From assembly GCA_021432605.1 (NCBI GenBank), contig MU271157.1:434001-498000 (forward strand): a stretch of 64,000 nucleotides of DNA, given 5' to 3'. Source of the DNA: Coniochaeta sp. PMI_546. Taxonomy: Eukaryota; Ascomycota; Sordariomycetes; Coniochaetales; Coniochaetaceae. This document shows positions 18-43,514 of the stretch, in pieces. The position numbers were made by a program, and so were the translations under genes. A model generated the notes under the pieces. That model was not told where the DNA came from and searched no databases. It was given only the letters and a program-made list of their open reading frames with translations. How positions within the stretch are numbered: position 1 is the first letter of the stretch; every line of letters begins with the position of its first letter.

Positions 18-725
18 GAAGTCTGTCAAATGGACGTGTCCATCAGCGTCTAACAGCACGTTGTCCGGCTTTATATCCCTATGTATGATGTTTTGCCCGT
101 GGATATATCTTATGGCGCAACCGAGCTCAGCAATCCAGAATCTAACCGCCTCTTCTGTAAACGTCTTTCTTGATATGTGGAATCGCAAATCACCGCCGCT
201 CATTAGGTCAACCACCAGGTACCTGCAACACAGTTTAGCCTCAAAGTTGCTGGAAGCAGAGGTATCGGCAAGGGGAGTCCTACATATACTCGATGTCCTG
301 AAAACTGTAGCGCAAGTTGCAGATGAAGGGATGGTTCACATGCTCAAGCATTCTCCGTTCTCGGATGATATTGCGAACGCTTTCGGAGCGAACGACTAGA
401 GGTCCCGTTAGTCTCGTCGCAGACACGACTGGAAGACACCGCAAAGCATTAGCGGCGCGAAACACGGGATATGATGCGCACCTTCATCCTTCCGTATGTA
501 TTTCAGCGCAAACGAGAGACCGGTATCCTTCCGCTCGACAATGCGGACCTTTCCAAAAGCGCCTCGGCCGACAACTCGCAGGAGGCGGAAATGGTTTAGG
601 TTCACTGATGGAACGGTACAGTAGTCAGAAATTGGTAGCTTGGAACGAGGATTGCAGGTTTGGGGAGGGCCTCGAAACTCACCTTCGCCGTCGAGGTCGA
701 CCGGCTTGCCCTGGCTGTTACCCAT
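18..725 (-). CDS. AGC-family serine/threonine kinase, STK32/YANK-like (3' part lies outside the window)
   Basis: Four exons are visible: 683-725, 482-604, 284-395 and 18-222. A fifth would lie beyond the left edge, because exon 4 ends at a GTACGT donor. The spliced frame gives the first 161 residues. Residues 27-32 are the glycine-rich loop GRGAFG, K49 in FALKYI is the ATP lysine, and H140-RDIKPDN-147 is the catalytic loop. The fragment stops just inside the DFG region (TDF). The N-terminus MGNSQGK fits the N-myristoylation consensus with Gly2, suggesting membrane anchoring. Family knowledge: fungal kinases with this N-terminus group with STK32 within the AGC class; substrates are poorly known. 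The start was chosen because it gives the myristoylation motif directly before the kinase domain. The kinase assignment is very safe; the subfamily is likely. Confidence 0.9.
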
Positions 726-3700
726 TGATACTTGGCCCGGGTGTCCTCCACAGTCGACGATGACGGAAGAGCAGCTCTCAGAAAGCGATAAGAAAAGCAA
801 TCAACGCTCTGAAAGTTGGGACATCCTACGCTCGGATCTCTTGCACGTCGTATGTCCTCCGAGGGAGTTGTATCTCCAAGAATTTCGCGGTACTCTGAGT
901 ATTTCGCTAAAGGGAGATGGGCGATCGCGAAAGTGAGTGGAGGGGGCGAATGGCTGTAGGTTCGGCACTCGAAACCTCGAAGCGGATACCGGAGAGCGGA
1001 GACAGTCGATGATTCGCCCGGTGCGTCAAGCGGTGACGGTGGAGGTCGTGGGAGGTCGTGGAGGTTTTGTCGTCCAGCACCCGCGTGGCCAGGGCCCCGA
1101 TTTACCGGGTCGGCTATTCCGCTTTTTGAAGGTGAAGCCGAGGACGTACTCGCCGTAAACTGATCAGTGGAGGGATGCCGCAATTGCTTGAATATCAGAG
1201 TTGGCGGATTACTGAGCAGGGCGATGAGGAGGAAGGTGTGTGGAATACGTGGCCAATGTCTAGCCAAGGAACGAGGAGGCTAGAATCAAGAAGATGGACT
1301 GGTTGGAAGGTGTGTTATAGGGGACTCGAGCTATACAAGGTGTATCAGGCGTGGTGGTGACAATGATAACAGGCGGTCAGCAGGTCAGCACTCTTCGTTT
1401 CTGGAGGAGATTGTAGAGGGGCTAGTCGAGCATAGCTCCATTAAGGAGACACATTGCAAGGGAGGGTATTGCCAATCTTTTAATCTTGCCAATTGCTGCA
1501 CACGAAAGATGAGATAGGAGGGGGTGGTCCGTGACGGCGATTTGCAGAGGAAGACAAGACCTTGTTTGGTCCTTGGTGCAGCTTGACACGGGCTTGACAG
1601 GGGTTAAAGGTGAAGCTTTGCAGTAATGGACATTGAGGGGTCCCCAGGATCTGATTACACGTACACTACGACTATATAGATGCTGCATTTGCGTAAAAAC
1701 ATCGTTGCAACGAACTGAAGCATCTCTGGCCTTGAGTCTCCCTCTACACTCGCCAACACTGCTCTTCACCTTCGGCTACCTACCTTCTACCCCTTGCGAT
1801 GTTTTCACGATGACGGGGCACGGTATCACGATGGTGTTACGTACCAAGCGCTACTAAGGCACTATTTCCACGTGTCGCCACTCCACGCCAGCCCCGGACA
1901 GGACAGGCGTCGTCTGCAGCACCCCGTCCTGCTTGCCCCCCCATTCCAACAGTGGCCAGTCACGAGTGATTGCGGGATCAAGTTGCAGCATGTGCTGCAT
2001 GTCTGACGGCAAGGAGAGGGTAAGGACTTACTACTATGGTATGCACTGTGGTAAACATAGAACTGGTGTCTGGCAGGCAGAGCCAAAGGAGCGCCGCCCG
2101 CCGATAGACGGTCACATCGGCAGTGAGTGCCCGTTCTGCCCGTTCTGCCCGTGTCTCTGCATGCAGCAGCCCTGGAGATAAACTTTTAGCATGCTGTACC
2201 GGTAAGGCTAGCATGGTGATCGCTATCATTTTCCGGCTTAACGTGCATAACCCAGCCCTCGCTAACCTGATCATCCATCCTGCGCGTGACTAGTGTACAG
2301 TGTCTTCATGTGCTAATCTCTGAGAAGTTGCCGTATAATGAATGCCATGATCATTATAGCCTGTGGTCACTGCCGCACGAACACAAAGGCTTATTATCGG
2401 AAAGCCGTTACCAGTCCATACATTACGGAAACGAACATGTTGTGTGCGAGGCCGGGCGATGACGAATGACGGCAGGGTCCAGAGGATCTGAGCGCTATCC
2501 GCATTCTGAGACTTGCCCTAAGCGAGGGCGGTGAGTTCTTCGGATGACCAGCAGGTCGTCTTAAGGGTGGGATGGCGAAGTGCGGGGAAATCACAGATGC
2601 AAATCAGCGAACCCAGAGTTTCTTTCAATCAGCGTAGCACCCGTCACCCAAGCGAGAACGCAGATAAAAAGGAACGGGATGGTTCTGGGCGGAAGTTGAG
2701 CCTCGTGGAGCCCCTGACAGCCACGGCAGCGGCATCCCTGTCCACCACGTGTAACTCGTGCCGCTCCAAGTTGGGTGCATCCAGCCGCCGAGGTGTATAG
2801 TCCGGCCGGACTGTGTCCTCGGCGGACTATCCTGAGTGCCACCGCTGTACAGCAGACGCCATTGCGTTAAAGTAGGCAATTCTAAACGCTGGTGTCACCC
2901 AATATTCGGCCTGACTGCGTGTCGCAAATGGAGGACTGGTGGTAAGGTTGCACGATGAAGTTCTGCTGGTATGCGATCTTCCTCTGGTTAGAATGCAGAA
3001 CCGTCATTATCATTCCGGTCGTGGCAAGGAAACGTCTCGGACAAGCTTTCTAAGGAGTATATGCCGTGACCATGAGGTGCGATCTCTAGGGCAGTCCGGC
3101 AACTGCTAAGTCCCAATATGCTTGATGAGCCCTTCATGTTCTTATCATTTCCCCAGTTGGCTGAAATATATTGTTTACGTCCAACACATGGATGGATTCC
3201 TTCTGGAACCCACAGAAATCCTTCAGTCTTCGTGTTCCTGGGAGACTTCAGTCATAGTGTCATGCACGCCAGCCACCAGCAAGCCACCAGAACTGTAAAG
3301 CGTGCCAATAATCGAACCTTGGCTCGCGACGGAAGAGCGTGGGTGTGCTGCAGGGACGCAGGACCTGCCTCCAGTAGTGAAGACAGAAGGCTTTTAGCAC
3401 GTCTTCGGCCTTTCTTTAAAAAGCTAAATCTAGACTATTTGCTCATCGCAGCGGGCTCGGTCCGTTGTGGCGACCGAGGCTGTTGTCCGCTTTCATAATC
3501 ATGAGATGGACACTGGACGGACAAACATCAAAGGCGTCTTGCATTTACTGGTATTATGTAAGCTAAAATTCCATGCCAGCCAGATCGCAAGCGACGGAAT
3601 TCCCCGAGGTTTGCTCTGAGAGGAGACGTACCTTTCCCGAAATGGACATCATCGTCATGACGTCACGGCAACCGCAATGTCAATGACACCAGCTTCAACA

Positions 3701-26830: not shown

Positions 26831-27049
26831 ACCGGGGTCTGGGCGATCTGACCAAAGCCGCTTCTTTGCCGGCGATCGCCAGCCATCAAGCCTCTACCGA
26901 GCAAGGAAAAAAAGGTCCGCCAACTCGGCCCGTCAACCAGCAACTACCGCATATAGACGGCCTGTCAATGCAGGTATTCGAAGCGGGTAAGACTGACTGT
27001 GCTGAGTGAACCCCCTGTCAGGCTGCTGGAACACACCCACGGTTTGTCA

Positions 27050-27062
27050 GATCGTTCCGATC
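27050..27062. promoter_or_regulatory. Candidate White Collar light-response element (best match)
   Basis: GATC GTTCC GATC has two half-sites 5 bp apart, the same spacing as I recall for the Neurospora frq proximal light-response element. It lies about 820 bp upstream of the VIVID start. Confidence 0.4.
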
Positions 27063-27562
27063 GCGTTGGTCTCGTGTGAGCGTGCAAGGGCCATGTGAGA
27101 CATATCTGACGCGGAATCCTCCAACTACCAGGTGTTATGGAATATGGATATGTTGGATATGGATTACACCACCTGGGGAACTTTGCCAGCCTAATCCCCG
27201 TTGCCGATTGATTGGACCCAAGGGATCAAAAACCTTCCTGGTGGATGCCGCCCCCTTCTCTGTCCTTTGAGATAGCTCCGATCACTGCCCCCGCAGGAGC
27301 ACGCTGCAATCAGAACCACATTGTTACCTACTGAGTGGATGGCCCCATGATTTGGCTTGAAAAAGAGGCTTCGGCTTCAACATCGCGCCAAAGTGCCAGC
27401 GGCGTACGCCTACCGCAGGGCCAGATCGTGCCATAACCAGCGCACCGGTCTTTTGTCTCACGCTGTCATGTTGCTCCCCTGCCGTATCCAGTATCCCGCG
27501 GTTTTGCTCCTGGTCACGCCTGGCTCGAGTGATCTGGGTCACAGAAAGCCGGAGCTTTCGAA

Positions 27563-27572
27563 GATCTCGATC
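27563..27572. promoter_or_regulatory. Candidate White Collar light-response element
   Basis: GATCTCGATC, two half-sites 2 bp apart and followed by C, so it includes a CGATCC core. It lies about 300 bp upstream of the VIVID start. Spacing differs from the other two candidates. Confidence 0.3.
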
Positions 27573-27871
27573 CAATCTTCTTCTATGGCAAAAGCGATAA
27601 TTGCGAGGTCGGACAAGCGTTTGACACGGTTATAGATGATCCCATGCTTCAATTGTGATATTTATCTCTTTCTTCCTCCTTTCAGACTCCCGTTTCCTTC
27701 CACCTTGAAATATTCGACCATCCTAGACGGTCACATCGAGTCCAGAGCAAATCGCCGATATACGTTATCGTTTATTGCGACTTAGAGGTTGTTACGCACC
27801 GGCATTTTGCGATACATCTTCGGCATAAACACCCCTGAAATCAACAAACCAACACCGACGACTCAGTGAAG

Positions 27872-28624
27872 ATGAATAGTTGGGAACATAGTGCTCTGGA
27901 GGTAACTTCGAACCGGCTCTAGATCTGCCGAGACGCGAGCAAGCAAAAATAGCTGATATCCCGTCTCTTAGTACCTAGAGCAGGAAGCACAAAATGGGGA
28001 TGCTGCAGCCGCCCAGCCAACGATATTCCACCCCACACTCTATACCGGGTCAGGTGTAGATGCCTTGAGCATCATGGTGAGTAACTACCCAGCATCGGGC
28101 GGTGTTGATATCATGAACCGAGCATCACTCGATAAGAGAGGCATAGGAGGATTCAGTGGCCACCTGTCGTCCGCATGGTATCAATACATCATCTTCTAAT
28201 ACATCAACAGCTCCAGATATACAACCGACCGAACCCGCAAGTCGAGATTGGGGCGGTCGATGCCTCCTGCGCGCTTATTCTCTGCGACCTGACGCAAGTG
28301 GACTCGCCAATTATCTACGCTTCCGAGCCATTCACAGCGTTGACCGGCTACTCTAAACATGAAGTGCTAGGACGCAATTGCCGCTTTTTACAAGCACCTC
28401 CCGATGCTACAACATTGCCTAGGAAATCGACAGCCGATAAGGCCGCCCTCAGGGAGATACGGCACGCTGTCAGCCACAACCGGGAGTGCCAAGTTGAGAT
28501 CACAAACTATCGAAAGGACGGGTCCAGGTTTCTGAACTACCTCACCATCATCCCGGTGCGGTGGAATAGTACCGAGTTCAACTATTCGGTTGGACTGCAG
28601 AGTGTGGCGGCGGAGTACGCTTGA
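27872..28624 (+). CDS. vvd: VIVID-type LOV blue-light photoreceptor
   Basis: Three exons, 27872-27901, 27972-28076 and 28211-28624, encode 182 residues; Neurospora VVD has 186. The N-terminal cap (MNSWEHSALEY, then HPTLYTGSGVDALSIM) precedes LQIYNRPNPQVEIG. The flavin motif GRNCRFLQ is at 99-106, with adduct-forming C102 (VVD C108). C65 and C70 match VVD C71 and C76. The VVD-type insertion between the E and F helices is present. Q177 or its neighbour in the final strand (YSVGLQ) matches the flavin-facing Gln. I68 and I79 match VVD I74 and I85; I128 and I158 occupy VVD M135 and M165. Known role: VVD dimerises in light and damps White Collar signalling (photoadaptation, circadian gating). All three junctions keep phase 0, and the gene stands alone. 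Confidence 0.93.
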
Positions 28625-29158: not shown

Positions 29159-29675
29159 TCAAATCTCATTCTCCCACCGTTCTGCCCAAATACCAGACCA
29201 TATAGCCACTGCACACTGACGTTTCAGAAGCACTACTGATACTGCTTCCTTGTTCACCTGTGCCTCCGGAAACATTCTTCTCCATGTCTCCCATGGCACA
29301 GCAACAGCATATTTAGAGCGTGCCTCGCCCCAATCCTTCTCAGCCTTTAGAACCAGCTTGCGGAGCCGCCTTATATAGCCTTTAAGCTCCTTTCTTCGTT
29401 CAAGATCCTCGCGGCTAGTTACCTGAAGGCCCTCGATAATAAGTTTGAACCTGGCTATATTATCTCGATCCGTAGGCTTGTTAGGGAGGTCGATATAGAT
29501 AGTCTTGATCTCCTATTTGGTACTGGGGACTGGGACCTCGTAATTGACGGTAGTGGTTTTGGATATTGTGGACTGCGGTTGCGATAGGAGGTTAGCGGCG
29601 CGATAGATTCCTGGTGTTAGAGGGTGCCACTTGCCTAGAGTGATTGATTCGGTTGATGGATGGAAGTGGTGGAAT
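29159..29675 (-). pseudogene. Broken, unidentified reading frame
   Basis: On the minus strand a frame runs LGKWHPLTPGIYRAANLL ... VNYEVPVPSTK, then a TAG at 29513-29515, then resumes as EIKTIYIDLPNKPTDRDN and ends WAERWENEI-stop at 29159. The downstream half looks clearly coding, with charged helical stretches (SREDLERRKELKGYIRRLRK) and tryptophans. No ATG opens it, and an upstream TGA blocks extension. One nonsense change and a missing start suggest a relic, perhaps of a repeat-encoded gene, since it sits beside the SRP40 relic and possible LTR debris. I do not recognise the family. Confidence 0.45.
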
Positions 29676-30002
29676 CAATCGGTGGGAGGACTTGTGTGGG
29701 AGACCCGATTGCTTGGCTCGTAGGACAGGCGGCTATTTTGTGTGCCGTGGGCGAAAAGCTTGTTCTGGCAAGCTGGTATCTTTATGGTCTGGTTATTTAG
29801 AGTTCACGGCTGTGACTCGGTTCGGTGATGTGACTCGGTTCGGTGATACTGTTGATGAGTTTTGGGTTTGCGTAGGCGAGGTGTTTCGAAGTTGGGATGA
29901 AGGTTATTGTGCGAAATGGATAACGGGTATCTATCCAACAGTGTTAATTCTCTTGTACTTCAAGCTAGGAAGCCTTACGTGTCGGCGGACTTATAACTAA
30001 AT
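29676..30002. other. Spacer between two relics
   Basis: 327 bp without coding signal. It contains a short direct repeat (CGGTTCGGTGATGTGACTCGGTTCGGTGAT, two 15-bp units) near 29818-29847. Confidence 0.45.
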
Positions 30003-32032: not shown

Positions 32033-33128
32033 CCCGGTATATGGCGGTATAGAGTCTATCGAGTGACCCGCCAGTATAGCTGTTGCTGCCGTGGGCGGGC
32101 TCAATTGGCTAGATGACCGTCTCCAGCGTGGCGCGCGGTGTGGGATGATGTCTGTTCAAACTTTAAGACACAGCAGGGTGTCGTCTCGGTTTCTCCCTTA
32201 GATATTATGCTCCTAAATTGAGGTGCGGGCGCTCAGGCGGGAGGTTTAGGAGCTGAGGGCAAGCCGGCAGGTGCCCCAAGCTATGGCAACTAGAGAGGAA
32301 AGTGCCACGTAAAATTCTGCCACCTATACGCCGATGTCGAGTATACCGCAAAATCGCCAGGCTCTAGTACTTTAGTACTAGCTAAACACAGATATGTATT
32401 GACCTTAAGGGTAGCAAGATGGGAGGTCGTCTGTATCAAGCGCTGCCACAACGCCTTGGAAGACCCTACTAATGGCCGTGGGGGAAGCTGTGGTGCCAAA
32501 GACCGATTGGTCAATATACGGCTCCCACAGCCAATTTTGCGATCGTCTGCTTATCTATGGGAGAGCGGACGGGATCCCGAGTTCTCAGACGTCTGTGGTC
32601 GTACGTGGAAGAACAGCAGCGTAATGTGGTTCTTCAGACCCGGATGCCTCAGTTTGCTTCCATGCTCGACCTAGCCCTCTCGGTCGAATGAAAGCATAGG
32701 ACCATAGCTTACGCCAGGTTTTCCATCCTCAACTATGGTCCAACGAAGGACCGGCACACCCGACGATTGCAGCACCAATTTTGGCCACTTGGGGAAGAAG
32801 CCACCGGAAAAGTCTTCCCCCGATCATTGGCCTGCTCACAAAACCTGGAATTATTTCGGCAAGGAATATAAGTGGCTAGCGTGTCGGGTTGTCGTGTGCT
32901 TTAGAAGCTGCCGAGAGGAGGGGAACAAAGTCTCCGGCTCGAATGGCGTGATGTGAGACTCAGAAGTTGACAAACGCATGGAATTAGTACTGAACATAAT
33001 GTGAGATACGGGACTGATCGATCTGCTCTGAATGCGGGTTTATCATCAGGCTTATCATGCGCAGGTTGCCGGAGGCCATGGACTTGTCTATAACAGTGTC
33101 GGAAAATCTTGGGCATCTACCTAATGAT

Positions 33129-41615: not shown

Positions 41616-42782
41616 ACTTTGACTGGCCCTTCTGTGAGGCAGAATCTCAACACTACCACATTCTATTTGATGTAAAGTTACAATAGACATTGATCTCTCT
41701 CCACCTCTGACGTCCAATATAGGCGACGTGATATTACGACTACCTAGCTATTCTTGTTCTTGACGTGTAGGTCTCATTGTGACGCATTCATAGATATGCA
41801 CAAGTGTGCGGATGATTCCTGGGTGTCGGAGTTTCCTTCAACTGGGTTGTCCATTACAAACCGAGGTCTACGCCTGGTCACAAGTTAGGGAGCGACTTTT
41901 TACGATGGGATGCAAGATTTGCTACGGTTGTATCCCATATGAACAGATCAATATACGCGGCTATCCGCTCCCGAAAGTCAGTCGGCCCTATCTCTCGGGG
42001 GTGCTGCAGTTGCAGTCTCGCCTTCGAGCTATGGAGGTTGAGCGGCTTGGTTGTCCGTCTAGGCATTCGTAGTCTACTCATGTGATTTTTCTTTCTTCAG
42101 GTGTACTGTTACGATGCGGATGTGCGCGTTAGGGAAGCGAAGCATTGGCACCCGGCGGGTGATCTTCCGCTGATCGTCTTCTCATAGCCAGCTTCAGCTC
42201 AACAGTTGTTTCGATGTGCTCTCTTCCATCACTCAGCTCTCGCAATCGTCCTCAATTGTTAAGGAACTCAGTTTCCATTACTTGAGAGCCTAACCAAGTA
42301 GCAAGTCAACGGCAAAGAGTCCCTCATTCAGCCCTGATCCTGGATTCTCGCAGTGTTCATGCGCTCGTCCGATCACGTCACTCAGAACCAGACCAAATGC
42401 CGGCCGAAGCCCGACGATGCACCCCGGATTCTGCTCACGAGCCAGGAAATCGTGCTCAAGGTTATTGTATGTCTTCCATCGCATTTAGAGTGGCACAATA
42501 TACGGAGTGCTTCCGAATGGCGTCTTCCCCCTATTTAGCCGGCGGGTAACCCACCTTACGCATGGCCGACTTCCATGCTTCCGGATAGGGATGACGGTCC
42601 TCCGCTGGCCACCTGTGCAGCGAGTATGGGGATGAAATGGTTGATATAAGGCTCTACCCGGGTCTCCTGGGTCTTGGCACTCAAGTTGCTTGCCCTCCAA
42701 ACGTCACACAACCCCTCTGAGCCGGTTTACTTGACTCAACAGTCTCCACGACGACTACTCCGACTGTGGAACGATTGTCAAT
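41616..42782. other. Intergenic upstream of the AA9 gene
   Basis: 1.2 kb without a supported gene. It contains the 3' flank of the small gene and the promoter of the AA9 gene. No regulatory motif was assigned. Confidence 0.5.
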
Positions 42783-43514
42783 ATGCACGTCCTCCCAACT
42801 CTCCTCCTCGCCGCCGGCGCGGTAGAGGCTCACTGTAAGCTACTGATCCTCACCTGTAACATGCCTTGTCTGACACAACCAGACACATTCCCTCAACTCC
42901 TAGCAGGTGGCAAAGCCACCGGCGAGTGGGTGAACGTTATCAAGACCACACATTGGCAAAACAACGGCTTCGTCGGCGACGTCAAGTCCGAGGGGATCCG
43001 ATGCGACGCCCTATCCATGGGCAGCGCGGCAACCATCAACGTCACTGCCGGCTCGACCGTCGGCTTCAGCGCCTCCCCCAACATCTACCACCCGGGCCCC
43101 GTGCAGATGTACATGGCGCGCGTGCCCGACGGCAAGAGCGCCAAGACCTGGGACGGGTCCGGGTCGGTGTGGTTCAAGATCTACCAGGAGCAGCCCAACT
43201 TCGGGGCGCAGCTGACATGGCCGAGCACGAATAAGGCGACGCAGAGCGTGACCATTCCGAGGTGTTTGAAGAACGGGGAGTACCTGTTCAGGATTGAGCA
43301 TATCGCGCTGCATAGCGCGAGTAGTAGTGGCGGGGCGCAGTTTTATATCTCATGTGGGCAGATCTCGCTGAGCGGTGGTGGGAGCACGGAGGGTGGCCCG
43401 ACGGTCGCGTTTCCGGGAGCGTACTCGGCGAGTGACCCAGGGATTCTGATTAATATCAACTACCCTGTGCCGACGACTTATGTTAACCCAGGCCCCAAGG
43501 TCTTCTCCTGCTAA
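42783..43514 (+). CDS. Secreted AA9 lytic polysaccharide monooxygenase (former GH61)
   Basis: Two exons, 42783-42834 and 42883-43514, encode 227 residues. Residues 1-16 are a signal peptide (MHVLPTLLLAAGAVEA). Cleavage exposes H17, which becomes the N-terminal copper-binding histidine (HYTFPQLLAGG). The second copper ligand is H87 in NIYHPGPV, and the axial tyrosine is Y172 in AQFYISCGQ. C58-C175 is the likely core disulfide; C145 and the final C227 may form another. No carbohydrate-binding module or linker is present, so this is a single-domain enzyme. Known role: copper-dependent oxidative cleavage of cellulose or related glucans outside the cell. The 48-nt intron is a multiple of three without stops, so an unspliced model would appear open and insert 16 residues after the catalytic His. 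Splicing gives the family sequence. Confidence 0.95.
   Translation: MHVLPTLLLAAGAVEAHCKLLILTCNMPCLTQPDTFPQLLAGGKATGEWVNVIKTTHWQNNGFVGDVKSEGIRCDALSMGSAATINVTAGSTVGFSASPNIYHPGPVQMYMARVPDGKSAKTWDGSGSVWFKIYQEQPNFGAQLTWPSTNKATQSVTIPRCLKNGEYLFRIEHIALHSASSSGGAQFYISCGQISLSGGGSTEGGPTVAFPGAYSASDPGILININYPVPTTYVNPGPKVFSC

Follow-up and report, generated by a model that had tools for sequence, protein, structure and literature searches.

Does a fungal photoreceptor that carries by nature the two pocket isoleucines known from slow, engineered variants of Neurospora VVD (VIVID) also hold its light state for longer? The question is raised by a gene on the forward strand of a 64,000-nucleotide stretch of Coniochaeta sp. 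PMI_546 (contig MU271157.1, positions 434,001 to 498,000), here called the window, which had been predicted to encode a naturally slow-cycling VIVID homologue. The evidence discussed below makes it likely that the gene does encode the VIVID of this fungus, which would be a short flavin-binding LOV protein with a VVD-like role, and that its isoleucine pair is an ordinary variant and not a mark of slow cycling. The gene and its relevant sites are the following.

27872-28624, + strand: whole VVD-like gene, with ATG at 27872, TGA at 28624, three exons and two GT-AG introns
27872-27901, + strand: exon 1 (MNSWEHSALE), splice model predicted from the letters
27902-27971, + strand: predicted intron 1, 70 nucleotides, GT-AG
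27972-28076, + strand: exon 2, which by alignment with VVD codes for the N-terminal latch and the N-cap, Y34 (VVD Y40) among them
28077-28210, + strand: predicted intron 2, 134 nucleotides, GT-AG
28211-28624, + strand: exon 3, coding for the hinge and the LOV core (PAS_9, 63.4 bits) up to the stop codon, predicted model
28379-28381, + strand: TGC codon of the adduct cysteine C102 (VVD C108), by alignment with VVD
28457-28459, + strand: ATA codon of I128 (VVD M135), by pairwise and 83-row alignments
28547-28549, + strand: ATC codon of I158 (VVD M165), by pairwise and 83-row alignments

Spliced according to this predicted model, the gene gives 549 nucleotides and a short protein of 182 amino acids without internal stops, whose Pfam matches belong to the PAS family only and include no effector domain. 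Among the 60 of 141 solved-structure matches listed, rows 1-8 are VVD chains, followed by ENVOY in row 9 and a plant LOV domain in row 10 (E 4.4e-20). In the pairwise alignment with Neurospora crassa VVD, 79 of 144 residues are identical, and both proteins share the adduct cysteine (C108, here C102), the N-cap cysteines C71 and C76 (C65 and C70), I74 and I85 (I68 and I79), Q182 (Q175) and Y40 (Y34). The motif around the photoactive cysteine, GxNCRFLQ, appears as GRNCRFLQ, and the N-cap and flavin features of the VVD type can be recognized in the latch residue Y34, the hinge residue C65 and Q175, the equivalent of Gln182 at flavin N5. Exon 3 is 57% identical to VVD versus 42% to the fungus's own WC-1. 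A predicted structure (mean predicted local distance difference test score 87.7) assigns I128 to a long helix and I158 to a strand, both in line with expectation; that none of the 50 aligned chains listed, out of 998, is a VVD entry in the structural comparison is not evidence against the match. By its sequence, then, the protein is a further VIVID-type member and a known kind of receptor. The original prediction of a VIVID homologue with its adduct cysteine, both N-cap cysteines and the I74 and I85 equivalents in place is borne out by the solved-structure matches, PAS_9, the VVD alignment and the search of its own genome described below.

The pocket residues were also read correctly. I128 replaces M135 and I158 replaces M165, with no gap between the two sites in the pairwise alignment, and both isoleucines share columns with the VVD methionines in an alignment of 83 rows; misalignment of the pocket residues is ruled out by the agreement of the two. 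On the dimer face, leucine and tyrosine (L46 and Y49) stand for I52 and M55, again as predicted, and further differences from VVD include A60 for P66 and I44 for Y50. The best solved-structure match is 3rh8_B with 170.7 bits (163.6-168.9 for the other seven VVD sequences), whose letters NTIRKAI and LTIIPVR give isoleucine at both 135 and 165; PMC4682037 refers to 3RH8 as the light-adapted VVD dimer. This best match shares the pair found here with the variant VVD M135I:M165I (VVD-II). That variant was engineered in Neurospora VVD, where its slow reversion was measured; for the window protein slow reversion is a possibility.

How unusual is such a pair? A scan of genome contigs with an Ile/Ile query confirmed at least 578 relatives, of which the best 80, ranked by similarity to that query, were compared; their record titles are all bacterial or archaeal, and the searches gave no fungal orthologue. 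At the site equivalent to M135 these LOV domains carry I in 32 cases, V in 22, L in 22 and M in 4, and at the M165 equivalent I in 42, L in 18, V in 18 and M in 2. Ile/Ile outnumbers every other pair (20 of 80, against 16.8 expected if the sites were independent), and rarity of the pair among LOV domains is thus ruled out within this prokaryote sample; Met/Met does not occur in it at all. An origin of the Ile/Ile share in the ranking by query similarity was rejected after one look by quarters, as the pair does not thin out down the list (6, 4, 4 and 6 per 20). Judged by these 80 domains, the isoleucine pair is an ordinary pocket variant among LOV domains outside fungi. In viral contigs no relatives were confirmed, either by the scan with exon 3 (18 pattern matches) or by that with a three-row profile (36). 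PMC4433212, PMC4682037, PMC11151830 and PMC13149671, all of which name sites 135 and 165, treat engineered variants; natural variation may be reported elsewhere.

Two explanations of the pair can be set against each other, one in which it is neutral or clade-wide and the Met/Met of Neurospora is the unusual state, and one in which slow cycling is natural to this VVD: lacking a methionine side chain at both flavin-facing sites and retaining I74 and I85, it would keep its adduct well past the 5 h of Neurospora VVD, and the fungus would use this as a long light memory. We lean towards the former. None of the seven VVD methionines in the aligned stretch is retained in the window protein, and because all seven are replaced, the pocket changes fit a wider divergence. 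The fungal comparators tell a similar story: VVD itself has Met/Met, Trichoderma reesei ENVOY (ENV1, PDB 4WUJ) differs with Met at the 135 site and Ile at the 165 site (aligned by eye), and the fungus's own WC-1 has Leu/Met, which adds to the lack of Met/Met among the 80 prokaryote domains. Three comparators, however, do not decide the direction of change in fungi, and PMC11151830 reports that methionine reaches up to about 20% at several LOV positions, a minority still, yet a higher share than in our sample. The second explanation draws on the engineered protein. M135I and M165I do slow the reversion of Neurospora VVD, as the original prediction stated: PMC4682037 gives a 10-fold longer adduct lifetime and PMC4433212 an in vitro increase from 5 h to 50 h, and both the pair and its I74/I85 background are equal in the window protein. 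Furthermore, Pseudomonas putida PpSB1-LOV (PDB 3SW1) has a natural Ile/Ile at both sites (aligned by eye) and recovers very slowly, in about 2400 min according to PMC13322254.

This likeness has its limits. PpSB1-LOV is bacterial, and PMC13322254 implicates arginines clustered at the flavin phosphate in its slowness; a change elsewhere, R66I, makes it about 100 times faster (2471 to 23 min, PMC6047819). AsLOV2, whose I466 and L496 are the equivalents of the two sites, is fast with its Ile/Leu pair: its recovery rate of 0.013 per s rises only to 0.019 per s when methionine is introduced at both (PMC11151830). In addition, 65 of the 144 aligned residues of the window protein are unlike those of VVD. 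Ile or Leu at both sites is common, in fast and slow LOV proteins alike, and the pair does not fix the kinetics; since other sites, as in PpSB1-LOV R66I, and the fast AsLOV2 show that the pair is not deciding, lifetime is not readable from two residues. Of the predicted natural slow-cycling double isoleucine, the two isoleucines therefore stand and the slow cycling does not follow from them. By analogy with the engineered variant, the adduct may outlast that of Neurospora VVD, a reversion clearly slower than in Neurospora is possible but doubtful, and the full account of a slow natural VVD serving as a long light memory remains a tentative one. It appears unlikely that this wild fungal VVD, through its engineered-type pocket, would stay in its light state for at least a day, which would give the VVD and white collar circuit a natural multi-day light memory and supply a ready-made slow optogenetic part.

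Some observations weigh against the preferred reading of the gene as the fungus's VIVID with an ordinary pocket variant. The same pair slows VVD about 10-fold and I74 and I85 are retained, so that slow cycling would be a fair expectation. PMC11151830, on 10,017 LOV sequences, counts both sites among the few flavin-facing ones with raised methionine frequency, and our own comparison covers prokaryotic domains that are not orthologues, the best 80 of at least 578. The dimer-face residues L46 and Y49 are unlike those of VVD, and splicing, flavin binding and expression are predicted. A related worry would be a non-working photoreceptor, that is, a pseudogene or a wrong gene model, for which one can point to a possible alternative start at 28175 that would omit the N-terminal latch; a frame open over three exons with GT-AG introns and the retention of the key photoreceptor residues make this very improbable.

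Would a longer lifetime matter to the fungus? The original prediction expected a long light state to alter how the fungus adapts to light. In a published test, a Neurospora strain with M135I M165I had no significant colour phenotype, the decay of frq mRNA was not significantly changed, and binding of the white collar complex was slightly, not significantly, higher. Because this strain lacks a significant phenotype, the physiological claim is disfavoured; by analogy, a longer-lived light state would probably change little for the living fungus, and other light regimes may differ.

The surroundings in which the protein would work can be read from its genome (33.5 Mb, 24 contigs). WC-1 is present as a 1022-residue frame with LOV, PAS and GATA domains (L001, G000:C12, frame 49-3117, - strand). 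A candidate WC-2 consists of a PAS domain in a 484-residue frame that breaks off where a GATA finger has just begun, the GATA match itself lying in an adjoining short frame, and FRQ is found with 1091.8 bits. A protein search (tblastn) with the LOV core returned the window gene and WC-1 only; four further PAS_9 matches (L005-L008) are absent from its result. Because WC-1, a candidate WC-2 and FRQ occur in the same genome, the protein most likely serves in photoadaptation as an ordinary VVD does. Photochemistry, dimerisation and role are most likely those of Neurospora VVD, from which we infer them: blue light would form a Cys102-flavin adduct in the short LOV flavoprotein, the adduct would change the N-cap via Gln175 and the C65 hinge, and the protein would then pair with itself and with the LOV domain of WC-1, a pairing that would damp the white collar complex, which is photoadaptation. 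The WC-1 of this fungus has the motif GQNCRFLQ, in which Gln replaces the Arg common to VVD and the window protein, Leu/Met in the pocket and Val at the I74 site.

What does this mean beyond the single gene? Residues that are introduced to slow an engineered LOV protein can also occur in nature and be widespread among LOV domains, so that they should not be used alone to judge the length of a photocycle. Should the protein nevertheless prove slow, nature would have its own counterpart of the optogenetic VVD made by engineering, and the protein would offer a test of whether fungi tune the length of their photocycle.

Regulation by light might also leave traces upstream, where one further feature was noted.

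26872-27871, + strand: upstream 1 kb, somewhat GATC-rich by word count, possible light-responsive elements

We take GATC, GATCGA and a spaced repeat to be light-element motifs. GATC occurs 10 times in this kilobase compared with a mean of 4.5 per kb, a weak enrichment, since 4.7% of 253 overlapping windows have as many or more, and CGATC plus GATCG occur 8 times against 2.19 per kb (2.0% of the same windows). The stricter motifs are not enriched in the upstream 1 kb (GATCGA 1 versus 0.51, spaced repeat 0). It is possible that the GATC-rich stretch contains putative light-responsive elements.

The neighbours of the gene between 4779 and 40817 look ordinary by Pfam and comprise a Miro-type GTPase, an arrestin, a BAR/PH protein, an Nse-type zinc finger, an ArAE-type transporter, COX15 and a class II tRNA synthetase; no photoreceptor families were found among the 20 window frames scanned with Pfam. 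Near the gene Rfam gave no matches up to E 1. Further along, 32513-32606 on the - strand matches 5S rRNA with 38.6 bits against a gathering score of 38, perhaps a degenerate copy. Beyond the 3' end of the gene, at a distance of roughly 700 bases, 29322-29900 has a second copy, 85% identical and the only other one found, at G000:C7:683632-684209, and is perhaps a dispersed repeat. Finally, 42735-43514 on the + strand encodes, by a match of 188.8 bits, an AA9 lytic polysaccharide monooxygenase; no other plant-cell-wall enzyme family was matched in the 20 frames.
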